From: Psychrobacillus lasiicapitis
GTDB lineage: Bacteria; Bacillota; Bacilli; Bacillales_A; Planococcaceae
Direction: 5' to 3'
NCBI RefSeq assembly: GCF_006861795.1
Contig: NZ_VDGH01000007.1
Coordinates: 62,001 to 126,000 of the forward strand
Length of the DNA stretch: 64,000 nt
Part shown: one piece after another, positions 23,179 through 39,890 of the stretch
Layout of the letters: each line of letters begins with the position of its first letter
How positions within the stretch are numbered: position 1 is the first letter of the stretch
Notes under the pieces: model-generated
Database searches by the model: none
What the model saw: the letters and a program-made list of their open reading frames with translations, nothing else
What the model was told of the DNA's origin: nothing
Made by a program: the position numbers and the translations under genes

Positions 23179-24072
23179 TTAACTTTTTACACGGAAAGAA
23201 GAGGGTATAGCAGGTTGTGCTCCCATTTGGGTAACAACGTATGCGGATAATTTCGATGCATATAAAATACTGTCCTTTATGGAGCTTCTTTGGCATAGTC
23301 CTACAGCTAAAGCACCATTAAAAGCATCCCCAGCACCAGTCGTATCTTTTGCAACCACTTTGTTTGCTTGCACATATCCATGCTCAAAGTGGTTCATGTA
23401 ATAAGCGCCTTTAGCACCTAGGGTTACTACTACTGCTCCTACACCTTTTTGTAGTAGTGAAGAGCAAGCTTGAAACAGTTCTTCTTCCGTTTCTGTTTTC
23501 ATCCCTGTTAGTATTGCTAATTCAGTTTCATTTGGTGTTAGTATAGAGATTTTACTCAATAATGAATCGCTAATTTGTTGAGCGGGAGCAGGATTTAAAA
23601 TAATTGGTACGCCATTTTTGGAAGCAATGTTAGCAGCAGTTTCGACTGCTGACATAGGAATCTCCAATTGTAGCAGAAGGACTTCGCTTGAGACTATTCT
23701 TTCTGCATGTTGCTCTATTTGTTCTGGTGTGACGAGAAAGTTTGCACCTGGAAAAAGAATAATCGAGTTTTCGCCCGAATCTGCCAATTGGATAATTGCT
23801 TGTCCTGTAATACCTACGTTTTGCACTGCGGCAATATTTACACCTTTGTCTTGCAAATTTTGCTTTATCTGCTCACCAAAATCATCTGCACCAACATTGC
23901 CGATGAAGTGAACCATTGCTCCTAGTTGACCCGCAGTTACAGCTTGATTTGCTCCTTTTCCGCCGAAGAACAATTCATGTTTTGTGCTATGTAATGTTTC
24001 ACCAGCTGCTACAATATGTGGCACTAGATAAACAAGGTCGATATTGGTGCTTCCTACGACTGTGATGTTCAT
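23179..24072 (-). CDS. rbsK: ribokinase (left paralogue)
   Basis: 297 aa PfkB-family kinase that phosphorylates ribose to ribose-5-phosphate. Signature 1 GGKGANQAV (residue 37 on); signature 2 DTTGAGDAFNGAL (near 243) with the catalytic Asp. Start ATG at 24072. Closely similar along its whole length to the ribokinase at 33637-34530 (well over 70% identical by eye). Lies 34 bases downstream of a nucleoside hydrolase that would supply its ribose. Unlike the right-hand locus, no transporter genes separate the two. Confidence 0.93.
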   Translation of the reverse strand: MNITVVGSTNIDLVYLVPHIVAAGETLHSTKHELFFGGKGANQAVTAGQLGAMVHFIGNVGADDFGEQIKQNLQDKGVNIAAVQNVGITGQAIIQLADSGENSIILFPGANFLVTPEQIEQHAERIVSSEVLLLQLEIPMSAVETAANIASKNGVPIILNPAPAQQISDSLLSKISILTPNETELAILTGMKTETEEELFQACSSLLQKGVGAVVVTLGAKGAYYMNHFEHGYVQANKVVAKDTTGAGDAFNGALAVGLCQRSSIKDSILYASKLSAYVVTQMGAQPAIPSSFRVKS

Positions 24073-24106
24073 GTTTTTCTATTCCTTTCATGGACTACAA
24101 GGTACT

Positions 24107-25057
24107 TTAATCCGCACTCATTTGTTTTACAGCATGGAAAAATTGCTCCACAAACTTTTCTCTATTGATTGTATGCAATACTTTCATATTATGTGGAAGT
24201 CCAGTTTGTTGCGCATAATCTACAATTGTAGTTCCAGCAGTATATTTTCCTTCTAATTCAACTGCAACGTGACAGTTATCCCCTTCAAAAAGCTCGGGTG
24301 TTAGTACATAAGACACTGCACACAAATCATGTAAGTGTATTTGGTTTTCAAAATTAGGTGCATGAAATGCAGTTTGCTTAGCTGAATGTATGTAAAAGCG
24401 AAGCATTTGACTAACTTTTGAAGCAAAGTCAGAGCCTATTGCTTCCATTTCATTTATCTCTTCTATTGTAACGTATGCTTTATGCGTCACATCCAAACCG
24501 CTCATGACAATTGGAATGCCTGAACGGAAGACAATATCTGCTGCATGTGGATCGACGTATACGTTAAATTCTGCAGTGGGAGACATATTTCCTCCAACAG
24601 CAGCCCCACCCATGTAGGAGATATATTTAATTTTCGATTTTACCTCTGGATGTGCTAATAGTAATGCACCGACATTTGTTAAAGGACCGGTTGCGATAAG
24701 TATTATTTGTTCATTGCTAGATAATAGAGTTTCTTTCATGGCTTCAATTGCTGGACGATTACTTACTTGAATAGTTGGTTCTGGAAATTCGACATTGCCA
24801 AGTCCATTCTCGCCATGCACTTTATCGGCAATTTCAAGCTTGCGGAAAAACGGTTTATCGAGACCTCTTGCAATTTCTATATTTTTTTTCATATAGCTCG
24901 TAAAGGTAAGTGCATTGTGAATCGTTTTTTCTTGTGTTTGGTTGCCTGGCTCTGTTGTGATTAGTTTAATATCTAGTTCCGGATGTGCAAAAGCAAGCGT
25001 TAATGCCATTACGTCATCTATTCCTGGATCACAATCGATAATTACTGGTATTGTCAT
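24107..25057 (-). CDS. inosine-uridine-type nucleoside hydrolase (left paralogue)
   Basis: 316 aa IUNH-family enzyme that splits ribonucleosides into base and ribose. The Ca2+/ribose site DCDPGIDDVMAL is at residues 9-20, ATGPLTNVGAL near 125, FNVYVDPHAADIVF near 170 and HDLCAVSYVL near 245. ATG follows GAGGTG at seven bases. About 85% identical by eye to the protein at 37651-38607. Cooperates with the ribokinase downstream. The region just upstream carries a relic of the LacI regulator that precedes the other copy. Confidence 0.92.
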   Translation of the reverse strand: MTIPVIIDCDPGIDDVMALTLAFAHPELDIKLITTEPGNQTQEKTIHNALTFTSYMKKNIEIARGLDKPFFRKLEIADKVHGENGLGNVEFPEPTIQVSNRPAIEAMKETLLSSNEQIILIATGPLTNVGALLLAHPEVKSKIKYISYMGGAAVGGNMSPTAEFNVYVDPHAADIVFRSGIPIVMSGLDVTHKAYVTIEEINEMEAIGSDFASKVSQMLRFYIHSAKQTAFHAPNFENQIHLHDLCAVSYVLTPELFEGDNCHVAVELEGKYTAGTTIVDYAQQTGLPHNMKVLHTINREKFVEQFFHAVKQMSAD

Positions 25058-25070
25058 TTATCTACACCTC

Positions 25071-25133
25071 TTATTTAAAATGTTCCATGCTTTCACTGAT
25101 TATAGTATGTGCAAAGACTACTTCTTCAGAAAA
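25071..25133 (-). pseudogene. 3' relic of a LacI-family regulator gene
   Basis: The minus strand reads TFSEEVVFAHTIISESMEHFK then stop (shown as 20-residue-scale text: SEEVVFAHTIISES is the core). This aligns with the end of the intact LacI protein, SEGVIFEPTLIIRES, with a one-codon gap, and ends just before the nucleoside hydrolase as the intact gene does. Nothing recognisable of the rest of the gene remains upstream. Confidence 0.7.
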
Positions 25134-25247
25134 TGTGCAATTTAGGTACAACTACAGAGTCAATTGCTAACCTAAATATTTAGAGTATTGCAGGCGATTA
25201 CGTTTGTCAATTTATTTTCTGGTATTTCACGACCATAAAGAAAAACA

Positions 25248-25279
25248 GACCAATTCATTAAGAATTGGTCTTCTTTTTA
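25248..25279. terminator. orphan bidirectional terminator
   Basis: Arms GACCAATTC / GAATTGGTC, five-base loop, TTCTTTTT after it on the plus strand and TGTTTTTC on the minus strand. No adjacent gene ends here. The 25058-25513 gap otherwise holds only the lacI relic and no convincing promoter. Confidence 0.65.
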
Positions 25280-25513
25280 TAGTTGAACATTGGAATAGAT
25301 AGTTTGTTCATATGGAAAGTACGAGTGAAAAATCCGTCTGAAGTTCAGTACAACTAGAACTAGTACGCCAAAAGTTGAATTCTATACTACTAATAAAAAT
25401 TTATAAAATATTTACTTGACGTATTGCTGACATATTCATTAGTTAAAGTATGTTTATCAGCAAGTTAGTTGATCTATTCCAAAGCGTTTCAAATCTAAAA
25501 AAGGAGTGTATTC

Positions 25514-26215
25514 ATGCCTATTCATACATCATTTAATCCGAATGGTAGACAAGAACTGAAATATGGCATCACATATATAGATTATATGTTATTAAAAAAT
25601 AGACTGAAATATGTGATGAGTTTAGATACTCATTCTGGTCCAACAGGAAAATATTTAATTCGTTCGTGTTATTTTGATAACTTTGAAAACAAAGTAATGA
25701 ACGAGAAAAAGGAAGGCTATTTAACTAGAGATAAATATCGCGTTCGTATTTATGGAAAAAGTGATGGGATTATTAATCTTGAACGGAAAAGTAAGCGTAA
25801 TAATCTAACTTTTAAATCTAAGTGCAATATGACGAGGTCAGAATTTGAAAAAATTCGTATCGGTGATATTCAGTGGATGGAAAAAGATAATCGCCCGTTA
25901 ATTTGTGATTTGTACTCAGAAATGACTAGAAACTTAATTAAACCTATGGCAGTAGTAGATTACGAAAGAGAGGCTTACGTTTATTTATACGGAAATGTAA
26001 GAGTGACGTTTGATAGTAAAGTGCAAACAAGCATACGGAATACGGATATGTTCAATAAGCATTTACCGATGGTAGACGTACTTGATCCGACAGAGGTCAT
26101 TTTAGAAGTAAAGTTTGACGAGTACTTACCGGATGTTGTGAAAATGATGCTTCAAGGTATTCATACGAAACATGAGGCTTATTCCAAATATCAGTTAAGT
26201 CGTATGTATATATAA
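25514..26215 (+). CDS. VTC-domain polyphosphate polymerase
   Basis: 233 aa with a VTC/CYTH-type tunnel domain. Alternating basic strands RQELKYGITYIDY, RSCYFDN, KYRVRIYG, INLERKSK, YEREAYV and the late acidic EVILEVKFDEYLP carry the triphosphate- and metal-binding residues expected of VTC4-like enzymes that make polyphosphate from ATP. ATG after AAAAAAGGAG. First gene of a set with a DUF4956 membrane protein and a beta-helix lipoprotein, a grouping I remember from other Firmicutes whose purpose is not established. Confidence 0.85.
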   Translation: MPIHTSFNPNGRQELKYGITYIDYMLLKNRLKYVMSLDTHSGPTGKYLIRSCYFDNFENKVMNEKKEGYLTRDKYRVRIYGKSDGIINLERKSKRNNLTFKSKCNMTRSEFEKIRIGDIQWMEKDNRPLICDLYSEMTRNLIKPMAVVDYEREAYVYLYGNVRVTFDSKVQTSIRNTDMFNKHLPMVDVLDPTEVILEVKFDEYLPDVVKMMLQGIHTKHEAYSKYQLSRMYI

Positions 26216-26278
26216 GGTGAATATTCAATCAGTTGGGGGTTCTTCATCCCTAGCGAGATAAAATTAGGAGGAAATAAA

Positions 26279-26965
26279 ATGGCAACTTCAACAACTTTTA
26301 CAGATATTTTCAAATCAAGCTTTATAGAAAAAACAACTACCTTTTCATTAACTGATTCACTAATAGGTCTGATATCAGCATTTCTATTGGGGATAGTTAT
26401 TTATATAGTTTATAAGAAAACATTTAATGGAGTAATTTACTCCCATACATTCAATATCTCACTGATGATTATGACAATGGCAACATCACTAGTCATCATG
26501 GGTATCAGTCAAAATGTTCTATTATCACTTGGTATGGTTGGAGCGTTATCGATCGTTCGTTTCCGTACGCCGATTAAGGATCCAATGGATTTAGTTTACT
26601 TATTTTGGTCAATAATTGTCGGAATTTTATGTGGTGCAGGTTTTATCCTACTAGGAATCCTTGGCACAATCTTAATAAGTTTGGTCATTATCCTATTTGC
26701 AAATAAAATTGTAGTTGAAAATCCATATTTATTAGTTGTGAAATTTGCGAATGGTGAAGCAGCAGATTCTATTGATCAACTATTAAAAAATTCAACGAAG
26801 AAATATGCATTAAAATCAAAATCTCATATTTTAGAATATGAAACGGAAGTAACGTATGAAATACGTGTGAAAGAAAATGATACAAAAGTAGTTTCCGATA
26901 TTTCACAAGTAAAAGGTGTTTCTTCAGCAGTAATGCTAAGCTACGATGGTAATTTTACAGCATAG
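26279..26965 (+). CDS. DUF4956 membrane protein
   Basis: 228 aa. Four TM segments (about residues 25-45, 58-80, 85-105, 112-135), with the conserved GMVGALSIVRFRTPIKDP motif between TM3 and TM4. A soluble C-terminal domain of about 90 residues follows, resembling a small ferredoxin-like regulatory fold. Such proteins sit next to VTC-domain polymerases and are probably membrane partners of polyphosphate synthesis or export (inference). ATG after AGGAGG; 63 bases behind the polymerase gene. Confidence 0.85.
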   Translation: MATSTTFTDIFKSSFIEKTTTFSLTDSLIGLISAFLLGIVIYIVYKKTFNGVIYSHTFNISLMIMTMATSLVIMGISQNVLLSLGMVGALSIVRFRTPIKDPMDLVYLFWSIIVGILCGAGFILLGILGTILISLVIILFANKIVVENPYLLVVKFANGEAADSIDQLLKNSTKKYALKSKSHILEYETEVTYEIRVKENDTKVVSDISQVKGVSSAVMLSYDGNFTA

Positions 26966-26968
26966 TTG

Positions 26969-27004
26969 AAAACAAAGGTCTGTAAAATTACAGGCCTTTG
27001 TTTT
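26969..27004 (+). terminator. intra-operon terminator/attenuator
   Basis: Arms AAAACAAAGGTCTGTAA / TTACAGGCCTTTGTTTT with a two-base gap (17 bp, one G-U) and a T-run. It lies 16 bases before the lipoprotein start, so read-through would set lipoprotein level relative to the upstream genes. Confidence 0.75.
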
Positions 27005-27019
27005 ATAGGAGGTAATAGG

Positions 27020-29314
27020 ATGAAGAAAAAAATAGTACTACCATTAATATTATCGGTAGTTTTGATTGCAAGTGGATGTAATGAAAAGAGGAGTACAGAG
27101 AAATCAGTGGATACGGAAGCACTAATTTCTCAATATGTAGATTATGATTCAGAAGATTACTATACTCCCTGGGAAGAAGATATATTTACCAAAATAACTT
27201 TAAATAATGAGGCAACAACATTTGACGGCTCTGGTGGCGTTATTATAAATGGGCAAAATGTAGAGATTCATACATCAGGTACTTATGTATTAGAAGGAAC
27301 CCTCTCTGATGGTCAAATTAAGGTTAATACAGAGGATACTGGAAATGTACGCTTAATATTAAATGGTGTAGAGATTACTTCATCTACTAATGCAACAATT
27401 GATATCGAGCAATCAGATAAAACGATTATCTCACTTGAAAAAGGTACAGAAAATAATTTAACTGATGCAACATCCTATGTTTATGAAGATGAAGCAAATA
27501 CAGAAGTCGGGGCGGCTATTTTTAGTAAGGATGATTTAGTCATCAATGGAATCGGTACATTGACGGTTAATGGTAAATACAAAGATGGAATAACGAGCCG
27601 TGATGATTTGATTATTACAGGTGGTACTATTAATGTAACTGCAGTCGATGATGGTGTTATTGGTCGCGATGTATTTGCAATGTCTAATGCTACGGTTAAT
27701 ATAACTGCAGATGGCGATGGTGTGAAATCATCCAATGATGAGGATGATGGCCGAGGAAATATTGTTCTCGAAAGTGGCTATTTAACAGTGGTAGCACAGG
27801 GTGACGGCATACAAGCCGAAAAGGAAATTATAGTAATCGATGGGGAGTATTCCATTAAAACAGGTGATGGAAGTCCAGAGGTTGTGTCTTCATCAGAATC
27901 AGGCATGGGAATGGATGGTGGCCCAGGTGTAGGAGCGCTGCCAGAAATGGGGATGGAATTCAGTTCAATGACAGATGACGAAGTAGAGGCATTTGTTGAG
28001 AATATGGAAAGTATGAATTTCCCGATTGATATTTCAACTGAAATTGAAGGCATGACAACAGAGGAGATTCGAGCGTATTTAACAACGACTTTAGAATCTA
28101 TGAGGCCACCAGGCGGTGGTGGAATGGATCGGCAAAATTCAGAAGGTAGTGAATTACCTGAAGATGGACAACTTCCTGATGAAAGTGCTGAACAAAATAC
28201 TCCACCAGAAAGAAATTCAGATTTTAAAGCTCCAGAAGAAAGAAATACAGAAGATAATAGCACCAGTACTTCAAGTGTTGATACTACCAGTCAAAAGGGA
28301 ATAAAAGCAGGAACAAATTTAAATATCGTAGGTGGCACAATCACAGTTGATACAGTGGAGGATGCACTGCATAGTAATGGAGATTTAACCATTCAAGGTG
28401 GAGAAGAAACTCTTTCAACGGGTGATGATGGTATACATGCGGATGGTAATGTGTTCATTGCTGGTGGTGATATTAAGATATTAAAAAGCCTTGAGGGTAT
28501 AGAAGGAACTAATATTGAAATTTCAGATGGTTCCATTCATCTTAAAGCAGCAGATGATGGAGTCAATGTAAATGGTGGTAGTAGTATGAATGAGATGTTT
28601 GGGACTTTTAATCGAACCCCAACTTCAACAGAGACTGAGGAAATGGCTGAAGATGTCTCTACAATAGAGGATGGCCTGCTTACTATTTCTGGCGGATATC
28701 TATACGTCGATGCAGATGGTGATGGATTAGATTCTAATACGAATATTACGATGACGGGTGGTACCGCTATCGTTTATGGTCCAACTGAGAATATGAATGG
28801 GACATTAGATTATGATGGAACATTTTTAATGCAAGGAGGAACATTAATAGCTTCTGGTAGTGCTGGAATGCCGTTAGGTGTATCTGATGGCTCAACACAA
28901 AATACGATTATGATGACATTTGATGAGACACTTGAAGCAAACACACCTGTTACTGTAACAAATAGTGATGGTAAACAAATTATCACGGTTGCACCTGAAA
29001 AAAATTATCAAATGATCGTAATTAGTTCTCCAGACTTCGAGTTAAATGAAGAAACAACTTTAAATCATGGAGGTACTGTAACAGGTGAAGTTGTTAATGG
29101 GGTCTATACGAATGCAAATACCACAGATCCAACAAGTAGTGTGACCTATTCACCCACAACAGTCATGACTTATTTAAATAGTAGTGGAGTGACAGAAGAA
29201 GGCTCATCTACGATAGGAGGTGGAATGAGAGGTAATATGCAGGGTGGAGGTGGTTTTGGTAGAGGCCAAGAGCGACAACAACCTGACAAAACAGAGGATG
29301 CTACAAATGAGTAG
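27020..29314 (+). CDS. Cthe_2159-like beta-helix carbohydrate-binding lipoprotein
   Basis: 764 aa. Start ATG behind AGGAGGTAATAGG; signal peptide with lipobox LIASGC (Cys near residue 20) anchors it outside the membrane. Two blocks of beta-helix repeats (residues about 70-260 and 420-660) show recurring 'GG.I.V...DDGI....' turns such as SRDDLIITGGTINVTAVDDG and DADGDGLDSNTNITMTGG, rich in Asp/Asn that could bind Ca2+. An acidic linker (about 285-420) separates them, and the tail is Gly-rich. Family members bind acidic polysaccharide. Probably the surface effector of the polyphosphate cassette (inference). Confidence 0.82.
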   Translation: MKKKIVLPLILSVVLIASGCNEKRSTEKSVDTEALISQYVDYDSEDYYTPWEEDIFTKITLNNEATTFDGSGGVIINGQNVEIHTSGTYVLEGTLSDGQIKVNTEDTGNVRLILNGVEITSSTNATIDIEQSDKTIISLEKGTENNLTDATSYVYEDEANTEVGAAIFSKDDLVINGIGTLTVNGKYKDGITSRDDLIITGGTINVTAVDDGVIGRDVFAMSNATVNITADGDGVKSSNDEDDGRGNIVLESGYLTVVAQGDGIQAEKEIIVIDGEYSIKTGDGSPEVVSSSESGMGMDGGPGVGALPEMGMEFSSMTDDEVEAFVENMESMNFPIDISTEIEGMTTEEIRAYLTTTLESMRPPGGGGMDRQNSEGSELPEDGQLPDESAEQNTPPERNSDFKAPEERNTEDNSTSTSSVDTTSQKGIKAGTNLNIVGGTITVDTVEDALHSNGDLTIQGGEETLSTGDDGIHADGNVFIAGGDIKILKSLEGIEGTNIEISDGSIHLKAADDGVNVNGGSSMNEMFGTFNRTPTSTETEEMAEDVSTIEDGLLTISGGYLYVDADGDGLDSNTNITMTGGTAIVYGPTENMNGTLDYDGTFLMQGGTLIASGSAGMPLGVSDGSTQNTIMMTFDETLEANTPVTVTNSDGKQIITVAPEKNYQMIVISSPDFELNEETTLNHGGTVTGEVVNGVYTNANTTDPTSSVTYSPTTVMTYLNSSGVTEEGSSTIGGGMRGNMQGGGGFGRGQERQQPDKTEDATNE

Positions 29315-29362
29315 TTCAATGTAATTTCAGTTTCATCTATACTAATGTTTTCACGAGAAAAC

Positions 29363-29397
29363 AGCCTTCCCAGTCGAAAGTTTCGACTGGGAAGGCT
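29363..29397 (+). terminator. strong intrinsic terminator
   Basis: Arms AGCCTTCCCAGTCGAAA / TTTCGACTGGGAAGGCT, 17 bp perfect, followed by TTTCTTTTT. Ends the polymerase/DUF4956/lipoprotein unit. Confidence 0.92.
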
Positions 29398-29547
29398 TTT
29401 CTTTTTGGTATATAAGCTGCCAACTTGCGGAATTCAATGTATGTAAATAATTTAATTTGGTGAGATTCCGGCCGACATTTATCTGACTTAAATAGGTGGT
29501 ATAATGTAAAAAATGAAGAAACTCTTAGTTAAGGGTGTGCTAGGCGG

Positions 29548-30228
29548 ATGAAAAAAATATTAATAGTCGAAGATGAGTTTGCCATTAGCCAAGTACTGAA
29601 AGCGTATTTAACGAAGCAAAATTATGAAGTAGTACAGTGCTACACTGGCAGTGAAGCAATCGAGGTATTTGAAAAGGAGTGTCCTGATCTAGTACTGTTA
29701 GATATAATGCTTCCTGGAAAAAACGGCTGGGTTATTTTAAAAGAAATTCGTTCTCTAGGGAGTTGTCCGGTTATTATGTTAACTGCATTGGGAGATGTTA
29801 ACTTTCGTCTAGAAGGCTTTGGCGAAGGTGCAGATGATTATATTTCAAAGCCATTTATTGCTGATGAAGTAGTGGCAAGAGTGAAGGCAGTATTGCGAAG
29901 GGTATCTAGTGAAGAACCATTAACTATGAACTTTGGTAAGCTTCATATAGATTTTATTGGTCATTCTGTAAGGTTAGATGGGAAAGAAATATTTCTCACA
30001 CCAAGGGATTTGTCAGTATTGCTTTTTTTGGCTAAGCAACCGAACCAAACATTCACTAGAGATCAATTAATTGAACATATTTGGGGATGGGATTACGACG
30101 GAAGTGATCGAGCAGTTGACTTATCTATAAAGCGTCTTAGAAAAGCACTAGCTGATTGGTCGGCAGATGAAGGTGAGATTAGGACATTACGAGGATTGGG
30201 GTATCAATTCAATGTTAGGCAAAAATAA
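29548..30228 (+). CDS. OmpR-family response regulator
   Basis: 226 aa. Receiver domain with acidic pair EDE (8-10), phospho-acceptor Asp52 in LVLLDIMLPG, Thr in MLTALGD and Lys in YISKPF. C-terminal winged helix with IFLTPRDLSVLLFL and DRAVDLSIKRLRKAL. Pairs with the overlapping sensor kinase. Location directly after the polyphosphate/beta-helix cassette suggests it controls that cassette, but no direct-repeat operator was identified. Confidence 0.9.
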   Translation: MKKILIVEDEFAISQVLKAYLTKQNYEVVQCYTGSEAIEVFEKECPDLVLLDIMLPGKNGWVILKEIRSLGSCPVIMLTALGDVNFRLEGFGEGADDYISKPFIADEVVARVKAVLRRVSSEEPLTMNFGKLHIDFIGHSVRLDGKEIFLTPRDLSVLLFLAKQPNQTFTRDQLIEHIWGWDYDGSDRAVDLSIKRLRKALADWSADEGEIRTLRGLGYQFNVRQK

Positions 30229-31624
30229 GAGAGTGACTCTGTTGTCGTATTGGACAAGTAGATATTTATTAACATTAATAATAGGATTGTTAATAATCTC
30301 TTTTATTTCAGCATTATGGATAAGACATACTACACTTGAAAATCGTTTGGAAATGATGGAGTTTATGGCAGAAGAGATGGTAAATCGGATTACTGATGTA
30401 AGTATGCCTGGAATTCCTCCAAATGAAAGAGTGCCAGATTTTGCTGAAGATCGATTCAGGATACAAAATATTAACCCATCCATGTACATAGTCAACACGG
30501 ATGGAAAAGTAATATCAAGTAATTTACCCTTAAAACAAGGGGAGCAAAGGATATTTAGTCAGTTAATAAGTGGAAAAGATGAGATTGAAACATTTACTTC
30601 TTCCGAAAATAACCAAAAATATTATTCGGTAAAAAAGAAAATTGTGATAGATGATGAGCTTATTGGCTGGATATTGATGGTTGAGTCGAAAGATAAATTA
30701 ACGATGGTCAAACAAGAGTATGGTCAACTCGCTATATTAATAGTTGGACTTGCATTGCTTGGCTGGTGGGCTATATATTTTCTGTCGAGAAGATTAGCGC
30801 ATCCGATAAAACAAGTGGCAGAAGCAGCTAAACAAGTACAAAGTGGTAACTATGAAATCAATTTATCTGACCACATTAAGGAAAAAGAAGTATACGAGCT
30901 TGTTTCTTCATTTAAACAAATGGCAGGTCGGTTAGAGCAATTAGAAAAAACAAGAACTGAATTATTAGCAGGCGTAACACATGAACTGAAAACACCAGTA
31001 ACGTCGATTAGTGGATTACTGCAAGCGGTAAATGATGATGTCGTTACTGAACAAGAAGCGGAAGAGTTTATTCGAATGGCGCTTGTTGAAACGACCAAGA
31101 TGAAAACGATGGTCGGTGATTTACTAGCATTCAACTCTTTTGCAGTAGGTGCGGTGCCTGTGGAAATCTCTCGGCTAGATGTTGATAATTTTATGAAAGA
31201 TTTTACTACTCAGTGGAAAGTGATACAGGAGCAATCAGATGTAGTGGTGAAACTACAATTACTTCATAAAAAAGTAATGATTTCTGCTGATTTAGTTCGT
31301 TTACAACAAATCATGACCAATTTATTAACAAATGCAGAACAAGCAATATCGGGGATAGGTGAAATAACAATCTCGCTTTCTGAAAAAGGACAGTATGTAT
31401 CTGTACTCGTTAAAGATTCAGGCTCTGGAATACGAATTGGAGAGCAAGCTTTTATCTTCGAGCGGTTCTTTAGAGGAGAAAATAAAAAGTACGGCATTCG
31501 CGGACTTGGTCTAGGATTACCTCTGAGTAAAATGATGGCACAATCGATTAAAGGTGATTTATATTTAGTTGAGAGTACAGAAAAAGGCACATGCTTTGAA
31601 TTGCTATTACTAAAAGAAGGCTAA
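30212..31624 (+). CDS. sensor histidine kinase
   Basis: 470 aa. Start ATG at 30212, 17 bases inside the end of the regulator gene; the longer frame reads back through that gene. TM1 at residues 16-38, extracytoplasmic sensor domain to about 172, TM2 (LAILIVGLALLGWWAIYFL), HAMP, HisKA with His257 in AGVTHELKTPVTS, N-box LLTNAEQA, G1 DSGSGI and G2 RGLGLGLPL. Signal unknown. Acts on the OmpR-type regulator encoded in overlap. Confidence 0.9.
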   Translation: MLGKNKRVTLLSYWTSRYLLTLIIGLLIISFISALWIRHTTLENRLEMMEFMAEEMVNRITDVSMPGIPPNERVPDFAEDRFRIQNINPSMYIVNTDGKVISSNLPLKQGEQRIFSQLISGKDEIETFTSSENNQKYYSVKKKIVIDDELIGWILMVESKDKLTMVKQEYGQLAILIVGLALLGWWAIYFLSRRLAHPIKQVAEAAKQVQSGNYEINLSDHIKEKEVYELVSSFKQMAGRLEQLEKTRTELLAGVTHELKTPVTSISGLLQAVNDDVVTEQEAEEFIRMALVETTKMKTMVGDLLAFNSFAVGAVPVEISRLDVDNFMKDFTTQWKVIQEQSDVVVKLQLLHKKVMISADLVRLQQIMTNLLTNAEQAISGIGEITISLSEKGQYVSVLVKDSGSGIRIGEQAFIFERFFRGENKKYGIRGLGLGLPLSKMMAQSIKGDLYLVESTEKGTCFELLLLKEG

Positions 31625-32669: not shown

Positions 32670-32749
32670 ATGGTTATATTTATAGTAACAAGAAATAAGT
32701 ATTGAATTTATAAAGAAATAGTCGGCCCCTTTTTAATATAAGGAATATC

Positions 32750-33637
32750 CTATTTTATCAATGGAACATCTCTTTTAAATATATGTATATTCATGAGCAG
32801 TAAGCTTAAAATCATCAATGGCATCCCGATAACTATTCCTAAATGGAATGGTTCCTGCAAAAAGAAAATCCCTAGAACGATTGTGACAAAAGGACTGATA
32901 AAAGTCACCATAGATGCAAGAATAGGTCCTCCAATTGAAATGATTTGATAAAAAATAACATAGCCAAGCCCGGCGCACAGGCAACCTAATATGAGAAGTG
33001 GTATGATTATTTCCCAAGCTACTAGGTGTTTAAAAGCATACGGTTCCATAAAGACACTAATAATACCATTTATTATGGCCGAGATAAGGAGTGTCCAGAA
33101 ACCTAAGAGAATGGTAGGGATACTTGTATAATACTTTTTTATCCATATGGAATTTAATGCGTATGCCATTGTAACAGCGAACATAAGAAAAGCATGGAAA
33201 ATGGAAAATTGAACGCCAGTAGATTGACTAGAAAAAAGTATTAACACGGAAACTGCTACAAATCCTATTAGCAGGCTGGTCGTTTGGTTCCAAGAAGGTT
33301 TTGTTTTTAGAATAATTATAGAAAATAATAAAGCAAATAAAGGTGTGGTAGCGTTTAATATTCCGCTTAAGCTTGTGTCAATTCCTTGAAGAGAGAAGGC
33401 CATAATATTCCAAGGGATGGCCGCACCTAATGCTAGAACAAATACAAAAAAAGGACGAACTTTTAGATGCATTCGATTTTTTTTTAGTAAGACAAACGGT
33501 AAAAGAGCAACTAAACCAAATAAACAGCGAAAAAAAACAATAGTAGGCGGCTTAAAAACATCTAAAAGTTCTTTTGTCCACATAAATGCCGACCCCCATA
33601 AAAAACTGAGAATGAATAAATAAATAATCGATTTCAT
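32750..33637 (-). CDS. DMT (EamA) permease coupled to nucleoside operon
   Basis: 295 aa, ten TM segments in two EamA halves (FLWGSAFMWTKELLDVFKPP; GYVIFYQIISIGGPILASM). Its ATG shares one base with the ribokinase stop (TAATG), so it is translated as the last gene of the nucleoside-salvage operon. That makes a purine, pyrimidine or sugar exporter a reasonable guess, since free base would accumulate after nucleoside cleavage; family alone does not tell. The left-hand paralogous locus has no such gene. Confidence 0.88.
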   Translation of the reverse strand: MKSIIYLFILSFLWGSAFMWTKELLDVFKPPTIVFFRCLFGLVALLPFVLLKKNRMHLKVRPFFVFVLALGAAIPWNIMAFSLQGIDTSLSGILNATTPLFALLFSIIILKTKPSWNQTTSLLIGFVAVSVLILFSSQSTGVQFSIFHAFLMFAVTMAYALNSIWIKKYYTSIPTILLGFWTLLISAIINGIISVFMEPYAFKHLVAWEIIIPLLILGCLCAGLGYVIFYQIISIGGPILASMVTFISPFVTIVLGIFFLQEPFHLGIVIGMPLMILSLLLMNIHIFKRDVPLIK

Positions 33638-34530
33638 TATTTATTTACTCGAAAAGAATGGGGAATGGCAGGTTGTGCACCCATTTGTGTAACAACAAAT
33701 CCCGCAATCTTTGATGCATATAGAATACTTTCTCGTAATGAGTTTCCTTGACGCAAACCTACTGCTAAAGCACCGTTAAATGCATCACCAGCGCCTGTTG
33801 TATCTTTTACCTCTACTTGGTTTGCATGTACATAACCATGATCAGTGCTATTCATATAATAGGAACCTTTTTCTCCTAATGTTACGACTATCGATCCTAC
33901 TCCTTTTTGGATCAATAGAGAACAAGCTTGGAATAGATCCTCTTCAGTGTTTGTTTTTAAACCAGTTAGAATTGCGAGCTCTGTTTCATTTGGTGTTAAT
34001 ATGGAAATTTTACTTAGTAATTTTTCGTTTATTTGTTGAGCAGGTGCCGGATTTAAGATGATATGTACTCCTTTTTGTGAAGCAATCTCTGCAGCGACTT
34101 CGACCACGGGTATTGGGATTTCCAATTGTAAGAGAAGAACGTCACTTGCTTCTATTCTGTCTTTTGCTTCATAGATTTGTTCCCTTGTAACAAGAAAGTT
34201 TGCTCCAGGAAATAGCACGATAGAATTTTCTCCCGAATCGGCGACTTGAATAATTGCTTGACCAGTCAAGCCGATTTCTTGAACAGCGGTGGTCTTTACT
34301 CCTTTATCTTGTAAGTTTTGTTTTATTTGTTCTCCGAAATCATCTGCTCCGACGTTGCCTATAAATTCGACATTGGCACCTAATTGACTAGCGGTTACCG
34401 CTTGATTGGCACCTTTTCCTCCAAAAAACAGTTTATGTTCAGTACTGTGTAATGTTTCTCCGGCTTTCACGATATGTGGTACCGTGTATACAAGGTCTAT
34501 ATTTGTACTGCCTACAACAGTGATGTTCAC
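33637..34530 (-). CDS. rbsK: ribokinase (right paralogue)
   Basis: 297 aa PfkB-family kinase, same length as the left copy. Motifs GGKGANQAVTA and DTTGAGDAFNGAL are both intact, as is LNPAPAQQ. Differences from the left copy are spread evenly along the protein, as expected of an old duplication with both copies under selection. Here it follows the ECF transporter genes by 17 bases and is followed by the overlapping DMT permease. It phosphorylates ribose released by the co-encoded nucleoside hydrolase. Confidence 0.93.
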   Translation of the reverse strand: MNITVVGSTNIDLVYTVPHIVKAGETLHSTEHKLFFGGKGANQAVTASQLGANVEFIGNVGADDFGEQIKQNLQDKGVKTTAVQEIGLTGQAIIQVADSGENSIVLFPGANFLVTREQIYEAKDRIEASDVLLLQLEIPIPVVEVAAEIASQKGVHIILNPAPAQQINEKLLSKISILTPNETELAILTGLKTNTEEDLFQACSLLIQKGVGSIVVTLGEKGSYYMNSTDHGYVHANQVEVKDTTGAGDAFNGALAVGLRQGNSLRESILYASKIAGFVVTQMGAQPAIPHSFRVNK

Positions 34531-34547
34531 GTATTATTTCACTCCTT

Positions 34548-35360
34548 TCATAAACTGCGCTGTGCTAAAATTGCTTCGATTAATTGCTGCTTTGATAAAA
34601 TGCCTGGAGAGAAATCAAGTAATTTTGCCATTTGGGCAACAGCGGGAGGTTTTAACATACTTTTTTCTAAAACTTCCGTATTATAAAAGACTTTTTGTGC
34701 ATTTTCATCGGCTACTAATTGTCGGTTTGCCATTACAATAATGCGTGTAAAATAGTCTGTTACAAACTCCATATCGTGCGTAATTGTAATAACAGATTTC
34801 TGCTTTTCTTCTAACACTTGAAGTAGATTCCCTAAAACTTGTAAACCAATTTTATCTTGTCCAGCAGTAGGTTCATCCAAAATGATAATATCTGAATCCA
34901 TAGCTAATACCGATGCTATTGTTACAAACTTTCTAACAGAGTAAGGTAAGTTATAAGGATTTTCTTCTGCGAACTCAGAGATTCCACATAATTTCAGCGC
35001 CCAATCAGTAAGTTCATTTACTCGTTCAGGTTCAAATCCCATGTTTTTAGGACCAAAACGAACTTCAGATTCTACATCATTATGGAATATTTGATCATCC
35101 GGATTTTGGAAAACATAGCCTACTTTTCTTGAAACTTGTGCTGTTGTGTGATTTTTTGTATCCCAATCACCTACTAGAACAGAGCCTTCTGTAGGTTTTA
35201 ATAATCCATTCATTAACTTGACTGCTGTCGTTTTTCCTGCCCCATTTTGTCCTACAATGGCCACACGTTCTCCAGATGTGACAGAGAGTGTAAGGTTTTC
35301 TAGCGCCTTTGTTCCATCTGGATATGAAAAGCTCACATTAGTTAGATGAAGTTCAGTCAT
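34548..35360 (-). CDS. ECF transporter ATPase EcfA' with degenerate signature
   Basis: 270 aa. Walker A GQNGAGKTT (near 36), Q-loop VFQNPDDQIF, Walker B IIILDEPTAGQD and H-loop TITHDMEFV are intact. The place of LSGGQ is taken by LPYSVRKFVTIA, so one composite ATP site of the EcfA-EcfA' dimer may be non-canonical. The C-terminal groove helix includes EKSMLKPPAVAQMAKLL. Overlaps the upstream EcfA gene by 8 nt. Confidence 0.88.
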   Translation of the reverse strand: MTELHLTNVSFSYPDGTKALENLTLSVTSGERVAIVGQNGAGKTTAVKLMNGLLKPTEGSVLVGDWDTKNHTTAQVSRKVGYVFQNPDDQIFHNDVESEVRFGPKNMGFEPERVNELTDWALKLCGISEFAEENPYNLPYSVRKFVTIASVLAMDSDIIILDEPTAGQDKIGLQVLGNLLQVLEEKQKSVITITHDMEFVTDYFTRIIVMANRQLVADENAQKVFYNTEVLEKSMLKPPAVAQMAKLLDFSPGILSKQQLIEAILAQRSL

Positions 35361-36213
35361 GTGCAGCTACCTCCGTTCTATTTAAAGCATCGGCTAGTTC
35401 TTCATCACGAATTGGTAGGAAGGAAAGGGGGATACCTGATTGCTGTAATTGAAGAGCAATTTCTGTAACATGTGGATATTGAATTTGATATTTTTCAAAC
35501 TCAGGATCCGCAAATACTTCACGAACAGGGCCTTGCATAACAAGTTCTCCTTTATGCATGACAAGCAAATCATCCGCATATTCTGCGATCAGATCCATCT
35601 TATGTTCTACTAAAACAATTGTCTTTCCACGCTCTTTCATCAGCCGTATAATTTCAAATATTTGTTGTGTACCAATAGGATCGAGTTGAGAAGTTGGTTC
35701 ATCTATTACTAAAATTTCTGGATCCATTACAATAATAGACGCAAGGGCTACTCTTTGCCTTTGTCCACCTGAAAGTTCAAATGGATTTTTGTCTCTTAAA
35801 TATTCGATTTTGACAAGTTTTAGTACTTCCTCTACTCGAATTTTAATTTCTTCGACCGGTATGCCTAGGTTTTCTAAACCGTACGCTACTTCTTCAAATA
35901 CATTGTCTTTTACTCCCGACACTTGAATAAATGGATTTTGAAATACATATCCTACTTTTTCTCCAAGTTGCCCTAATTGGTAATCTGTTATTTTTGTTTG
36001 ATCGATTATTACTTCTCCATCTAAATCTCCCTTATAAAAGTGGGGGACAAAGCCTCGTATTGTATTACATAATGTTGTTTTTCCAGAGCCATTATTGCCT
36101 ATAATTGCAGTGAATTTTCCTTTTTCAATTGAAAATGAAATATTTTTTAACACGGAGTCATCGCTGACTGGATAGCGGTAAGATACATTTTTTAAATCAA
36201 TCATAGCTGTCAT
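35353..36213 (-). CDS. ECF transporter ATPase EcfA
   Basis: 286 aa. Walker A GNNGSGKTT, Q-loop VFQNPFIQVSG, canonical signature ELSGGQRQRVALA, Walker B ILVIDEPTSQLDP and H-loop LVEHKMDL. Start at 36213, seven bases after GGAGG, in a four-base ATGA overlap with ecfT. With EcfA' and EcfT it forms the energy module that drives the S component of this locus. Confidence 0.9.
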   Translation of the reverse strand: MTAMIDLKNVSYRYPVSDDSVLKNISFSIEKGKFTAIIGNNGSGKTTLCNTIRGFVPHFYKGDLDGEVIIDQTKITDYQLGQLGEKVGYVFQNPFIQVSGVKDNVFEEVAYGLENLGIPVEEIKIRVEEVLKLVKIEYLRDKNPFELSGGQRQRVALASIIVMDPEILVIDEPTSQLDPIGTQQIFEIIRLMKERGKTIVLVEHKMDLIAEYADDLLVMHKGELVMQGPVREVFADPEFEKYQIQYPHVTEIALQLQQSGIPLSFLPIRDEELADALNRTEVAAHD

Positions 36214-36953
36214 AAGAAAAACCTCCATACAATTAGACCAATAACAACCAATGCAAAGACAATTGGAAGAGCTCGGTCCATGTTACTTTTCGATAGTTGG
36301 TGTAAGCTTGTTTTTTTGACGGGAGCAGAAAATGCCCTAGATTCCAATGTAATTGCTCTCTCTTCTGTTCCTGCGATAGAAGATAAGATAAGCGGAGTTA
36401 GCGTTGGTATAAAAGCTTTAGCACGTACAAATATGGAACCTTCCGTTTCGACACCACGTGTTTTTTGCGCTTCCATAATGGTATTTGCTTGGCGACGCAT
36501 TTCTGGAATGATTTGAAGGGTTGATAATACGACATATGCTCCCATTGGTGGCAATCCTATATCTTCTAATGATTTCACGAAATCACGTACTTCTGTCATT
36601 CGGAAAAATAGAATAAAAGCAGATCCAATTGCAAGAATCCGGGATGTGAGTAATAGACCATATTTTATTCCTTCTTGTTTTATTTCAAAGATGCCCCATT
36701 CCCAAAGCACATTTTCCCCAGGATAGAAAAACATTTGCATAATGAAGATGAAGATTAAAACAGTAACCAAAGCTTTAATAACGATATTGAGGAACTCTTT
36801 TGCAACACCGGCAAGCATTGCTATTAGTATTAAAATAGGGAAGATGGCAAAAGAAAATATATATCCAGGCGATATGAGCACTACCGCAAAGATAAAGAGA
36901 GTGAAATAGAACTTTGTCATAGGATGAAGTTGAAGTAATATATTTTGTTTCAA
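36210..36953 (-). CDS. ECF transporter transmembrane scaffold EcfT
   Basis: 247 aa. Five or so TM helices and the cytoplasmic coupling region with the paired Ala-Arg-Gly-type motifs, seen here as AQKTRGVETEGS and ESRAFSAP, which contact the two ATPases. Start is TTG at 36953 behind AAGGGG; no better ATG is in range. Between the S-component gene and the ATPase genes, as expected for a dedicated (group I) ECF system. Confidence 0.9.
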   Translation of the reverse strand: MKQNILLQLHPMTKFYFTLFIFAVVLISPGYIFSFAIFPILILIAMLAGVAKEFLNIVIKALVTVLIFIFIMQMFFYPGENVLWEWGIFEIKQEGIKYGLLLTSRILAIGSAFILFFRMTEVRDFVKSLEDIGLPPMGAYVVLSTLQIIPEMRRQANTIMEAQKTRGVETEGSIFVRAKAFIPTLTPLILSSIAGTEERAITLESRAFSAPVKKTSLHQLSKSNMDRALPIVFALVVIGLIVWRFFL

Positions 36954-36980
36954 GTTACATACGCCCCTTATAAAAATAAT

Positions 36981-37019
36981 TTCTTCCCGTTCAAGAAATG
37001 AATAGTTAAACGGGAAGAA
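36981..37019 (-). terminator. intercistronic hairpin in ECF operon
   Basis: Arms TTCTTCCCGTT / AACGGGAAGAA between the S-component and ecfT genes. The T-rich tail on the minus strand (ATTATTTTTAT) is broken, so partial termination or an RNA-stability hairpin is more likely than a full stop. Confidence 0.5.
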
Positions 37020-37025
37020 TAAGAA

Positions 37026-37628
37026 TTATTTTCTGTTATTTCGTTTCATGTACAAGTCCCCATAATTCATCTTGGATAAATAACGATCTGACATGGCTTT
37101 TACGATAAAGTAAACGATTAAAACAGAAACAACTTTGTCTGCAACCTCTGTGATAAAGCTAGAAGAGAAGACTGCGGACCATAATTCCTGTCCTGACGCT
37201 AAGAAAGCTGCAGTAATAAGGGATGAAGTATTTCCTGTTACTCCACCAAAGACAAACACCGTGATAGGTGCTGAAACAATAACTGCTATAAAAGTAATAA
37301 TGATTCCAGAAATAATTGTTTTTGGTACACTTTTGAAAAAACCGTATTTAGAAAGGTAACCTGCACCAACCCCAATTGCTATAGAAGTTAATGCGTAAGG
37401 AAAATAAACAGGATTAAAAATACCGTTAATTAAATTTGTAATAAGTCCTGTAAGTAGAGCAACCCAAGGGCCTGCAATAACCCCAACTATAATTGTGCCA
37501 ATCGTATCTAAGAATATTGGTAAGCGAAGTACATTAGCTAACTGAAATCCTACTAGGTTCACTGCTACTGCAATCGGAATTAACAGCATTGCCATCATAT
37601 TAAAATCATCTTTAAAGCTGCGTTTCAT
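37026..37628 (-). CDS. ECF transporter S component, probable nucleoside importer
   Basis: 200 aa, six TM helices. It has the S-component look: FLDTIGTIIVGVIAGPWVAL in TM2-3 and the Asn/Gly-rich NLINGIFNPVYFPYALTS. ATG seven bases after AAGGGGG; the longer frame has no ribosome site. Substrate binding is inferred to be a nucleoside or related ribosyl compound because the gene sits between a nucleoside hydrolase and a ribokinase under a LacI-type regulator. Confidence 0.82.
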   Translation of the reverse strand: MKRSFKDDFNMMAMLLIPIAVAVNLVGFQLANVLRLPIFLDTIGTIIVGVIAGPWVALLTGLITNLINGIFNPVYFPYALTSIAIGVGAGYLSKYGFFKSVPKTIISGIIITFIAVIVSAPITVFVFGGVTGNTSSLITAAFLASGQELWSAVFSSSFITEVADKVVSVLIVYFIVKAMSDRYLSKMNYGDLYMKRNNRK

Positions 37629-37650
37629 GAATTTTCCCCCTTTGCTTTTT

Positions 37651-38607
37651 TTAACCAATTTGTCGGCTCATTGTTTGAACGGCACTCAGAAATTGTTCAA
37701 CAAACTTCTCTCTGTGAACCGTATGTAATACTTTCACATTATGCGGAAGCCCAGTTCGTTGTGCATAGTCTACGACAGTTGTTCCAGTTGTCAACTTGCC
37801 CTCCAGCTCGACTGCTACATAACAGTCATCCCCTTCAAATAATTCAGGTGTCAAGACGTAAGATACTGCACATAGATCATGTAAACGTATATGATTTTCA
37901 AAGCCATCCTCATGAAATGCCGTCTGTTTAGCTGCGTGGACATAAAAACGAAGCATCTGAACAACTTTTTGTGCAAAATCAGAGCCAATTGCTTCGATTC
38001 GATTGAGTTCTTCTTTTGTGACGTATGCTTTATGGGTTACGTCTAATCCGCTCATAATAATTGGAATGCCTGAACGGAAGACAATGTCTGCAGCGTGTGG
38101 ATCGACGTACACATTAAATTCTGTAGTTGGAGTCATATTTCCACCTACTGCGGCTCCACCCATATAAGAAATGTATTTAATTTTTGATTTTATTTCTGGA
38201 TGCGCTAGGAGTAGGGCACCGACATTTGTCAAGGGTCCTGTCGCAATGAGAACGATTTGTTCATCACTAGATAAGAGTGTTTCTTTCATTGCTTCTATTG
38301 CGGTTCTATTACTTAATTGGATAGTTGGTTCTGGAAAATGGACATCCCCAAGTCCATTGTCTCCATGTACTTCATCGGCGATTTCAAGCTGACGGAAAAA
38401 AGGATTATCTAAACCTCTAGCAATCTCGATATCTTTTTTCATATAACTAGTAAAAGCAAGTGCGTTGTGAATTGTTTTTGCTTGTGTTTGGTTTCCTGGT
38501 TCTGTTGTGATGAGTTTGATGTCTAGTTCGGGATGAGCAAAGGCGAGTGTTAGCGCCATTACGTCATCTATTCCAGGATCACAATCGATAATTACTGGTA
38601 TTGTCAT
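37651..38607 (-). CDS. inosine-uridine-type nucleoside hydrolase (right paralogue)
   Basis: 318 aa. DCDPGIDDVMAL near the N-terminus holds the Ca2+/ribose Asp cluster; ATGPLTNVGAL, FNVYVDPHAAD and HDLCAVSYVL match the left copy exactly or nearly so. ATG at 38607 follows GAGGTG; the 323-codon frame overlaps the LacI gene and lacks a site. Four bases behind the LacI stop and 22 bases before the ECF S component. Cleaves imported nucleoside; ribose goes to the ribokinase downstream. Confidence 0.92.
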   Translation of the reverse strand: MTIPVIIDCDPGIDDVMALTLAFAHPELDIKLITTEPGNQTQAKTIHNALAFTSYMKKDIEIARGLDNPFFRQLEIADEVHGDNGLGDVHFPEPTIQLSNRTAIEAMKETLLSSDEQIVLIATGPLTNVGALLLAHPEIKSKIKYISYMGGAAVGGNMTPTTEFNVYVDPHAADIVFRSGIPIIMSGLDVTHKAYVTKEELNRIEAIGSDFAQKVVQMLRFYVHAAKQTAFHEDGFENHIRLHDLCAVSYVLTPELFEGDDCYVAVELEGKLTTGTTVVDYAQRTGLPHNVKVLHTVHREKFVEQFLSAVQTMSRQIG

Positions 38608-38611
38608 GTGT

Positions 38612-39622
38612 TTACACCTCATTGTAATTTTTTGTGCTTTCTCTGATTATTAAAGTAGGTTCAAATATTACACCTTCCGAAATCTCACCTTCTATTTTGT
38701 TAATAAGTAGGTCTATTGCTTTTCTCCCCATTTCATACGTATTTTGCCTAACTGTAGTTAACTTTGGGATTAATGCGGTTACTAATGGAATATCATCAAA
38801 ACCAACTATGGATAGTTGATCGGGTATTTGAATTCCCATTTCATGTGCAGCTTGGTAAATACCACAGGCCATTAAGTCATTACTAGCAAAAATAGCGGTC
38901 ACCGTATTATCCCGTAGAAACTTTTTTGCTACACGATAAGCAGTATCCATTTGAAAGTCGCCAACTAAAATGGAGGATGCAGGAAGATCTACAGTAGCTT
39001 CCTTTAGAGCTCGTTGAAACCCAGAAAGTCTTTGTTTGGAATTTTGAATTTCTCTTGGTCCCGTCATACAGGCAATTTGAAAGTGACCTAAATCTGTCAG
39101 GTGTTTCCCTGCTAGGTAACCACCTTTTTCATTGTCTAAAAACACACCTGAATAATCGGTTCCATCTTCTCCACGGTCAAATAGTACATAAGGAATTTTG
39201 CCATTTTGTAACTGATTTTTACTAGTCTTTGATAAACGATCCTTACTAGAAAGTAATATGCCATCTACTTGTTGCTCTTTTAACAAGCGTATATAATTTT
39301 CTTCTTTCCCGGATTGATCGTCTGAATTACAAATAATGAGACTATATTGCCTATTGTTTGCTTCATCTTCTGCACCCCTACAAAGTTCAGGAAAGTAGGG
39401 GTTGGTAATATTTGGGACTATTAATCCGAGCATATTGGAGCGTTTTGTTACTAAACCACGAGCTAACTTATTTGGTTGGTAATTTAGCTCTTCCATTACT
39501 TTCAAGACTTTCTCCCGAGTTTTTTGGGTCATTCCGTCTTCCTTATTGTTTAATACTCGTGAAACTGTTGTGATTGAAACACCTGCCTCCCTAGCTATAT
39601 CCTTGATTGTTAACTTTTCCAT
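38612..39622 (-). CDS. LacI-family transcriptional regulator
   Basis: 336 aa. N-terminal helix-turn-helix TIKDIAREAGVSITTVSRVL, hinge PNKLARGLV, then a sugar-binding fold (LGLIVPNITNPYFPEL; IFASNDLMACGIYQAA; VGFDDIPL). RbsR/PurR-like; ligand probably ribose or a nucleoside. First gene of the operon it presumably controls, with two tandem AAAACGTTTT palindromes and a cre box upstream. A short relic of a paralogous gene lies at 25071-25133. Confidence 0.92.
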   Translation of the reverse strand: MEKLTIKDIAREAGVSITTVSRVLNNKEDGMTQKTREKVLKVMEELNYQPNKLARGLVTKRSNMLGLIVPNITNPYFPELCRGAEDEANNRQYSLIICNSDDQSGKEENYIRLLKEQQVDGILLSSKDRLSKTSKNQLQNGKIPYVLFDRGEDGTDYSGVFLDNEKGGYLAGKHLTDLGHFQIACMTGPREIQNSKQRLSGFQRALKEATVDLPASSILVGDFQMDTAYRVAKKFLRDNTVTAIFASNDLMACGIYQAAHEMGIQIPDQLSIVGFDDIPLVTALIPKLTTVRQNTYEMGRKAIDLLINKIEGEISEGVIFEPTLIIRESTKNYNEV

Positions 39623-39650
39623 CTATAATCACCTGTTCCTACTTGTTAGG

Positions 39651-39673
39651 AAAACGTTTTACGAAAACGTTTT
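39651..39673. promoter_or_regulatory. tandem LacI-type operator half-palindromes
   Basis: AAAACGTTTT occurs twice, at 39651-39660 and 39664-39673, each a self-palindrome with the central CG typical of LacI-family operators. They are about 30 bases before the LacI gene, fitting autoregulation of the nucleoside operon. Confidence 0.75.
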
Positions 39674-39695
39674 CTCTAATTGTTATTCAGAATAT

Positions 39696-39709
39696 TGCAA
39701 ACGGTTTCA
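39696..39709. promoter_or_regulatory. CcpA cre site
   Basis: TGCAAACGGTTTCA fits the cre consensus TGNAARCGNWWWCA at every position. Suggests carbon catabolite control of the nucleoside-salvage operon. Confidence 0.7.
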
Positions 39710-39756
39710 TTTGTCAATTGAATTTTCAAAAATATTAAAATAAAACAATCTATTGT

Positions 39757-39890
39757 ATTAGTTAAAGGCAGTTTCTAATGATAGAAATAGTATCTTAGCA
39801 TAATAAAAAATAGATCAAAATGAAGAGTACATTATGAAAGGGGAGTTCCGTTGTAACGATGACTTACTTAGGGAATGCAATAATGTAGGG
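39757..39890 (+). pseudogene. decayed duplicate of the fabI promoter and body
   Basis: AGTATCTTAGCATAATAAAA matches the fabI leader (31781-31800) at 19 of 20 bases. Before it ATTAGTTAAAGG...CTAATGATAG mirrors the FapR box region. After it AGTTCCGTTGTAACGATGAC TTACTTAGGG matches the coding segment for SIVTMTYLG (about 32240-32268), then AATAATGTA. The intervening coding sequence is gone and no frame is open. Confidence 0.75.

Follow-up and report, generated by a model that had tools for sequence, protein, structure and literature searches.

Two adjacent units of the same orientation, each derived from a nucleoside operon plus fabI, lie in a 64-kb window of the Psychrobacillus lasiicapitis genome (G000; 4.49 Mb in 28 contigs; window G000:C26:62001-126000), and the genes that they retain are complementary: unit 1 keeps a ribokinase, a nucleoside hydrolase and fabI, and unit 2 keeps the whole LacI-ECF operon. 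With moderate confidence, we attribute this arrangement to an in-place tandem duplication of [operon-fabI] followed by reciprocal loss, with later insertion of a polyphosphate (VTC) cassette and later exchange of unit 2 between species. A sequence-only reading of this DNA had given the gene order correctly and had proposed a tandem duplication; the tandem units and their complementary loss stand, and the membership of the cassette in the duplicated unit does not. The same layout is present in two further Psychrobacillus genomes (G013 and G007), and as these are separate assemblies the arrangement is not an assembly artefact.

From left to right, the order is rbk1, iunH1, a lacI relic, the cassette, fabI, an EamA transporter gene, rbk2, the ECF genes, iunH2, lacI, a fabI relic, and an acyl-CoA dehydrogenase gene. 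Unit 1 follows a complete hairpin terminator between tatA and the operon end (23082-23117) and contains the reverse-strand ribokinase gene rbk1 (23179-24072; above the TIGR02152 cut-off) and nucleoside hydrolase gene iunH1 (24107-25057; PF01156), a lacI 3' tail that serves as the leader before iunH1 (25058-25132, reverse), a retained operon promoter (TTGACA-17-TACTCT; 25182-25210, reverse), the forward-oriented cassette (25393-31650, with edges uncertain by about 15 bp), and forward-oriented fabI (31800-32591), the only match in the genome at E <= 1e-60. The proposed duplication junction (32716-32734, forward) is followed by unit 2, with the EamA-family transporter (DMT) gene (32750-33637), rbk2 (33637-34530), the ECF transporter genes coding for two ATPases and the T and S components (34548-37658), iunH2 (37651-38622), and the LacI-family regulator gene (38612-39622), all on the reverse strand, and then tandem operators consisting of two AAAACGTTTT copies (39650-39674), the operon promoter (TTGACA-17-TATTCT; 39689-39717, reverse), and the fabI relic. 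The DMT gene, which the sequence-only reading overlooked, is the last member of the unit 2 operon and occupies the same place in G013, G007, G015, G018, G001, and G035. The names VTC, DUF4956, Cthe_2159, IunH, ribokinase, ECF S and T, EamA, LacI, and FabI are profile matches; the genes that we take to code for TatA, acyl-CoA dehydrogenase (acd), catalase (kat), a GMC oxidoreductase, the ECF ATPases, an ABC transporter, and a two-component pair were recognized by eye.

Comparison of window positions 20001-42000 with themselves by blastn pairs the two ribokinase genes (23186-24091 with 33644-34551, 73.9% identity) and the two hydrolase genes together with the lacI tail (24117-25132 with 37667-38682, 79.7%). 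It also identifies relics of fabI and lacI, both at the places required by a duplication, as had been claimed from the sequence. The fabI relic consists of three collinear forward-strand pieces: a promoter and start piece (39758-39824; 31767-31800 matches 39775-39808 at 88%), an internal coding piece with about 400 bp deleted ahead of it (39832-39872; 32224-32261 matches 39832-39867 at 84%), and a terminator hairpin (39907-39940) that matches the fabI terminator of G007. With the terminator as its third piece, the relic covers the full extent of fabI, promoter included, apart from two internal deletions. The lacI relic includes a 42-bp upstream match (25177-25218 with 39684-39725, 78.6%). None of 1,000 shuffles, each scored for its best and second-best match, reaches either relic (fabI, 44.6 and 40.1 bits versus shuffle maxima of 32.8 and 28.3; lacI, 36.5 and 36.5 bits versus 29.2 and 25.6). 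The internal fabI piece was considered as a species marker and set aside as non-discriminating, matching at 35 of 41 positions in G000 and G013 and also in G005. No fabI fossil without a duplication is present in the locus maps of relatives, and a systematic fossil search of all 19 genus genomes was not made. No DMT relic above chance was found beside rbk1 by blastn and tblastn, and no ECF remnants beyond the junction bases were seen by eye.

The lacI relic is real and correctly placed, although it is mostly a preserved promoter. Ten operons with lacI were inspected, the outgroup operons G161 and G143 not being among them; every one has the motif TTGACA-17-TANNCT, and nine have two exact AAAACGTTTT operators behind the promoter; the tenth, the second copy in G003, has one exact and one variant operator. 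All four unit 1 copies (G000, G013, G007, and G017) keep TTGACA and the 17-bp spacing, followed by TACTCT in three and TAACGT in G017, and all four have lost lacI and both operators, with the AACGTT core present in none. The apparent fossil is thus the promoter and the iunH1 leader, left after removal of the repressor and its operators. The distance from the −35 box to the hydrolase start varies (153, 153, 117, and 87 bp in G000, G013, G007, and G017), so the deletions differ and the outcome is the same. From the loss of lacI and both operators, unit 1 is probably unregulated and constitutively expressed. The rbk1 and iunH1 proteins are still under selection, since the ratio of nonsynonymous (dN) to synonymous (dS) divergence between G000 and G007 is about 0.1 (rbk1, dN 0.072 and dS 0.68; iunH1, dN 0.053 and dS 0.59), with both genes near background.

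Nineteen Psychrobacillus genomes were searched with the hydrolase, fabI, and VTC genes. The hydrolase is present in 9 of them (E <= 1e-60) and a VTC gene in 12 (E <= 1e-20), and all 19 have exactly one fabI (E <= 1e-60). A pre-duplication order had been proposed as something to seek in relatives, and a single [operon-lacI-fabI] unit is indeed found in three: G008 has tatA-rbk-ECF-iunH-lacI-fabI-ABC-acd, and G015 and G018 have DMT-rbk-ECF-iunH-lacI-fabI. The doubled order is common to G000, G013, and G007, and G017 has unit 1 only (rbk-iunH-fabI), with no match to the ECF S component elsewhere in its genome at E <= 1e-15. In an rpoB tree these four genomes form a group (support 100/100), with G009 next (100/99). 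G001 has the nucleoside operon at another locus, and G003 has rbk-iunH-lacI-cassette-fabI as well as a complete operon without DMT elsewhere. The two G003 copies are not in tandem, and it is the fabI-proximal copy that has lost the ECF genes, which we judge to be a parallel to the unit 1 loss; a common event is unlikely because the two G003 lacI genes are sisters (100/99). Eight regions from other genera of the family contain the operon whole or in part, and none has fabI within these 18-kb stretches.

Duplication in place is favored by three marks of resident type that border unit 2. On the left, next to DMT, G013 has one arm of the operon/tatA terminator as an exact 14-mer (L056:17266); in 881,554 bases scanned for the terminator and hairpin motifs, this 14-mer occurs 11 times, 10 of them in the five complete border hairpins of G000, G013, G007, G017, and G009 and one at the junction. 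At the right end, the relic promoter shares TTAGCATAATAAAA with the fabI promoters of G000, G013, and G007, and this is absent from those of G017, G015, G018, G008, and G009. With as many as 6 mismatches in 34 allowed, the hairpin of the fabI terminator is found in the same scanned bases only 3' of G007 fabI and in the G000 and G013 relics. To the right of lacI2, G007 has the type of fabI 3' flank seen in G017 and other species, with an orf351 remnant as in G017. Palindromic repeats with relatives in several genus genomes lie at 15541-16144 in the window and in the fabI-DMT gap of G013 (L056:16725-17156). Left of unit 1, the presumed GMC oxidoreductase gene and a small partner (19518-22031) are of two strongly different types, with G000 and G007/G017 sharing 66 to 68% DNA identity (dS of about 1.7 to 2.4) and G013 siding with G000.

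The cassette codes for VTC, DUF4956, and Cthe_2159 proteins, a response regulator, and a histidine kinase, and its loss from copy 2, as the sequence-only reading had it, gives way to a horizontal arrival. Its genes have dS values of 0.23 to 0.51 to G012 and G014 (VTC, 0.24 and 0.51), far below those of fabI (1.81 to 1.95, the latter for G014) and kat (2.39 to 2.50) between the same genomes. Homology to G012, G014, G005, and G001, which carry the cassette at unrelated loci away from fabI, begins at 25380-25395 and ends at 31649-31657 in G014, G005, and G001, and at 29330 in G012, followed only by an 81-bp match. No cassette remnant is visible at 39630-39760, where the best cassette match is 24 nt, inverted, with an E value of 5; positions 39625-39731 are the lacI2 promoter region, 87 to 91% identical to its counterparts in G015, G018, and G008. 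With this foreign dS pattern and no unit 2 remnant beyond chance, the cassette is rejected as part of the duplicated unit and probably entered the G000/G013 line from the G012/G014 side of the genus. The slot itself is variable among relatives, being empty in G017 and holding other cassettes in G007, G003, G009, and G002. VTC-type cassettes occupy the position upstream of fabI in 6 of the 19 genomes (25393-31650 in the window; L058/L059, L064, L068, and L069), and by VTC identity they are of three kinds: that of G000 and G013, that of G007 (42%), and that of G003, G009, and G002 (53 to 56%, in the opposite orientation). CotH-kinase genes are confirmed in the G007 and G009 cassettes, and the slot looks like a repeated landing site.

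In a DNA tree of the concatenated hydrolase and ribokinase genes, unit 1 copies, including that of G017, and unit 2 copies form separate clades, each with 100/100 support, which places the separation of the copies ahead of the divergence of the four lineages. The approximately unbiased (AU) test rejects a duplication later than the G017 split, in the form of a tree that unites unit 2 with unit 1 of G000, G013, and G007 and leaves G017 outside (P = 2.1e-5; a cost of 80 log-likelihood units); the groupings put to this test were named after the trees had been seen. Grouping of copy 2 with G015 and G018 gives AU P values of 0.125 (concatenated), 0.045 (ribokinase), and 0.357 (hydrolase), values that do not point to direct transfer out of that lineage.

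Synonymous divergence was compared for genes paired in the fetched stretches, with median dS values to G000 of 0.21 (G013), 0.74 (G007), 0.72 (G017), 1.60 (G009), 1.51 (G015), 1.29 (G018), and 1.70 (G008). Between G000 and G007, the eight unit 2 genes have dS values of 0.21 to 0.53, whereas 37 other genes, left after removal of those with saturated dS and of the cassette response regulator, have a minimum of 0.44 and a median of 0.83 (Mann-Whitney P = 1.8e-7; P = 2.6e-7 with genes above a dS of 1.5 also dropped, leaving 35). Intrinsic slowness of the unit 2 genes, whose dS values to G015 and G008 are about 0.8 of the median, was judged by inspection of the tabulated dS values. Because its dS lies below that of nearly all other genes, unit 2 was probably exchanged between the lineages after they split, whatever its origin. 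The same test between G000 and G013 gives a P value of 0.04, with unit 2 genes at low (0 to 0.07), middle (0.23), and high (0.39 to 0.41) values. Across 31800-39622 this pair is a mosaic, with dS values of 0.39 to 0.62 for fabI, DMT, and rbk2, 0.23 for iunH2, and 0 to 0.07 for the ECF genes and lacI, against an all-pair median of 0.21. The segment at 31714-31850, covering the upstream region and start of fabI, has 97.8% identity in the comparison of G000 with G007, against 87% for the fabI genes themselves, and appears to be a small recombination tract. In G015 and G018, the operon is 97.3% identical over a 7,283-column alignment (about 7.28 kb) that begins at the lacI promoter and ends past DMT (L061:10123-17404 and L062:8882-16141), with flanks at about 77 to 91% apart from a 56-bp continuation; this is a recent block transfer between species. 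The mobile-block signature of high identity and abrupt edges is seen for this pair, and unit 2 of G000 and G007 has a moderate excess of similarity only.

A history that accommodates these features would begin with an ancestor of G000, G013, G007, and G017 that had a single unit, DMT-ribokinase-ECF-hydrolase-lacI diverging from fabI, at the tatA-fabI locus. This unit would have been duplicated head to tail in place, with the left break in the operon/tatA hairpin and the right break behind the fabI terminator. Unit 1 would then have lost DMT, the ECF genes, lacI, and the operators while retaining the promoter, hydrolase, ribokinase, and fabI, in line with the earlier proposal that copy 1 lost its ECF genes and lacI: all four unit 1 copies lack the ECF genes, and unit 2 alone has these and lacI. 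In unit 2 the importer operon would have stayed intact with its regulation, and fabI would have disappeared, through erosion in G000 and G013 and through clean deletion in G007. G017 probably collapsed through fabI-by-fabI recombination while two fabI genes existed, dropping unit 2. Later, the cassette would have moved from another lineage into unit 1 of G000/G013, and unit 2 would have been swapped between species.

Several observations weigh against in-place duplication. Divergence between the copies within a genome (dS of 1.15 to 1.31 for iunH and 1.31 to 1.93 for rbk) equals that between species (about 0.9 to 1.7), and plain vertical descent does not account for the high similarity of copy 2 in G000 to copy 2 in G007. 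The sequence-only reading had named paralogues branching with different genera as evidence against a duplication; the copies instead form two clades within one genus, but their sisterhood is not established (AU P = 0.158 concatenated and 0.070 for ribokinase alone), the best iunH tree places them together at only 49/14 support, and the gene trees neither demonstrate nor reject it. Ribokinase-alone trees leave G017 unplaced, and the copy 1 ribokinase of G000, G013, and G007 is nearer to those of G015 and G018 (78.5 to 80.5%) than to copy 2 (73.5 to 76.7%). G017 carries no direct trace of having lost unit 2. Each of the end marks is short: the half hairpin is exact only in G013, has four differences in 14 in G000, and was not found in G007, and the whole relic promoter is only slightly nearer to the clade (49 to 50 of 63) than to G009 (47 of 63) or G008 (48 of 65). 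Three further 14-mer sites appear once a single mismatch is allowed: two are the arms at the operon/tatA border of G008, and the third, in G016, lies away from that border, so the 14-mer is not strictly confined to the clade.

Much of this would suit a merger of alleles, in which unit 2 came from a close sister lineage and, through fabI homology, was inserted next to an already reduced unit 1 (a merodiploid or Campbell-type event), such that the copies are xenologues and G017 never had unit 2. This somewhat unlikely alternative explains the equality of copy-to-copy and between-species dS and the low dS of all eight unit 2 genes, needs no loss in G017, has a precedent in the block movement of the same operon between G015 and G018, and fits the presence of DMT in unit 2, as in G015 and G018, and its absence from unit 1, as in G008. 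But resident-type sequence borders unit 2, so the donor must be an unsampled near sister, and loss of the ECF genes in all four unit 1 copies, including that of G017, is easier with a second copy already there. A much older duplication, before the split from G015, G018, and G008, with secondary reduction in the single-unit species, would agree with copies that have diverged as much as, or more than, those species and with the weak grouping (47/64) of copy 1 with G015 and G018 in the best concatenated tree; it is improbable, as it needs independent clean losses in G008, G015, and G018 with a single fabI restored, and it too is opposed by the resident-type markers at the unit 2 ends. That the operons were acquired independently and the relics are chance matches or misassembly has in its favor that the operon is also at other genus loci (G001 and the second G003 copy), but the shuffles, the shared layout of three genomes, and the collinearity of the three-piece fabI relic leave this explanation scarcely credible.

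Under tandem duplication and reciprocal loss, the locus is a natural case of the process known as tandem duplication-random loss (TDRL) or selection during niche adaptation (SNAP), with intermediates. As set out in the SNAP paper (Brandis and Hughes 2020, PMC7055797), segmental duplication is followed by asymmetric loss, trapping once needed genes have gone from different copies, and altered gene order; pseudogenes with matching active copies are proposed there as traces to seek, a finished case is said to leave nothing unique to the model, and direct empirical evidence of SNAP-caused rearrangements is described as lacking so far. On the reading favored here, the locus shares segmental duplication, asymmetric loss, and changed order with that model, and it may share the retention of needed genes in different copies; in the same account, SNAP concerns tens to hundreds of genes selected for dosage in a new niche, whereas the unit here is about 8 to 9 kb. 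The array may be trapped: the sole fabI is in unit 1 and the ECF genes and lacI are only in unit 2, so collapse would now cost either fabI or the importer. The fabI gene is presumably essential; in a search for backup enzymes, FabL and FabK models were below their cut-offs, and FabV was not searched. TDRL, or duplication-random loss, of animal mitochondrial gene order is alike in tandem copying and complementary loss and differs in that this is an ordinary operon on a bacterial chromosome, with strongly diverged copies and states preserved in relatives. Segmental duplication and asymmetric loss are also invoked for operon clusters of Gammaproteobacteria and Bacilli (PMC8046335), where, in the portion of that text consulted, the authors say that they were unable to establish the exact mechanisms; at the present locus a single mechanism is indicated by the relics and intermediates. 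No publication on this locus was evident by title or abstract opening in the literature searched.

In function, the operon resembles LacI/RbsR-type ribonucleoside salvage operons (Rih/IunH, ribokinase, and ECF importer) through PF01156, TIGR02152, PF12822, and PF00356 matches, and differs in that the hydrolase, S component, and regulator are below the NCBIfam equivalog cut-offs, so no particular substrate or inducer is assigned. Unit 2 would provide nucleoside import and degradation under LacI control, and unit 1, from its predicted expression, a supply of hydrolase and ribokinase without control. Reciprocal loss may have turned a single regulated pathway into two, an importer operon under LacI control and, beside fabI, a hydrolase-ribokinase pair that is always on; living species would then document SNAP before duplication, in the doubled state, and after collapse; this fuller reading we put forward tentatively, at just short of an even chance. 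The locus illustrates that a regulator fossil can be a retained promoter and that a gene set enclosed by two copies, such as the cassette, may be no part of what was duplicated. The causes of change in bacterial gene order are under debate, and this locus bears on the SNAP question: because it is unfinished, with fossils, a candidate junction, and relatives that represent each state, the sequence in which events occurred and the selection acting on the retained parts are testable.

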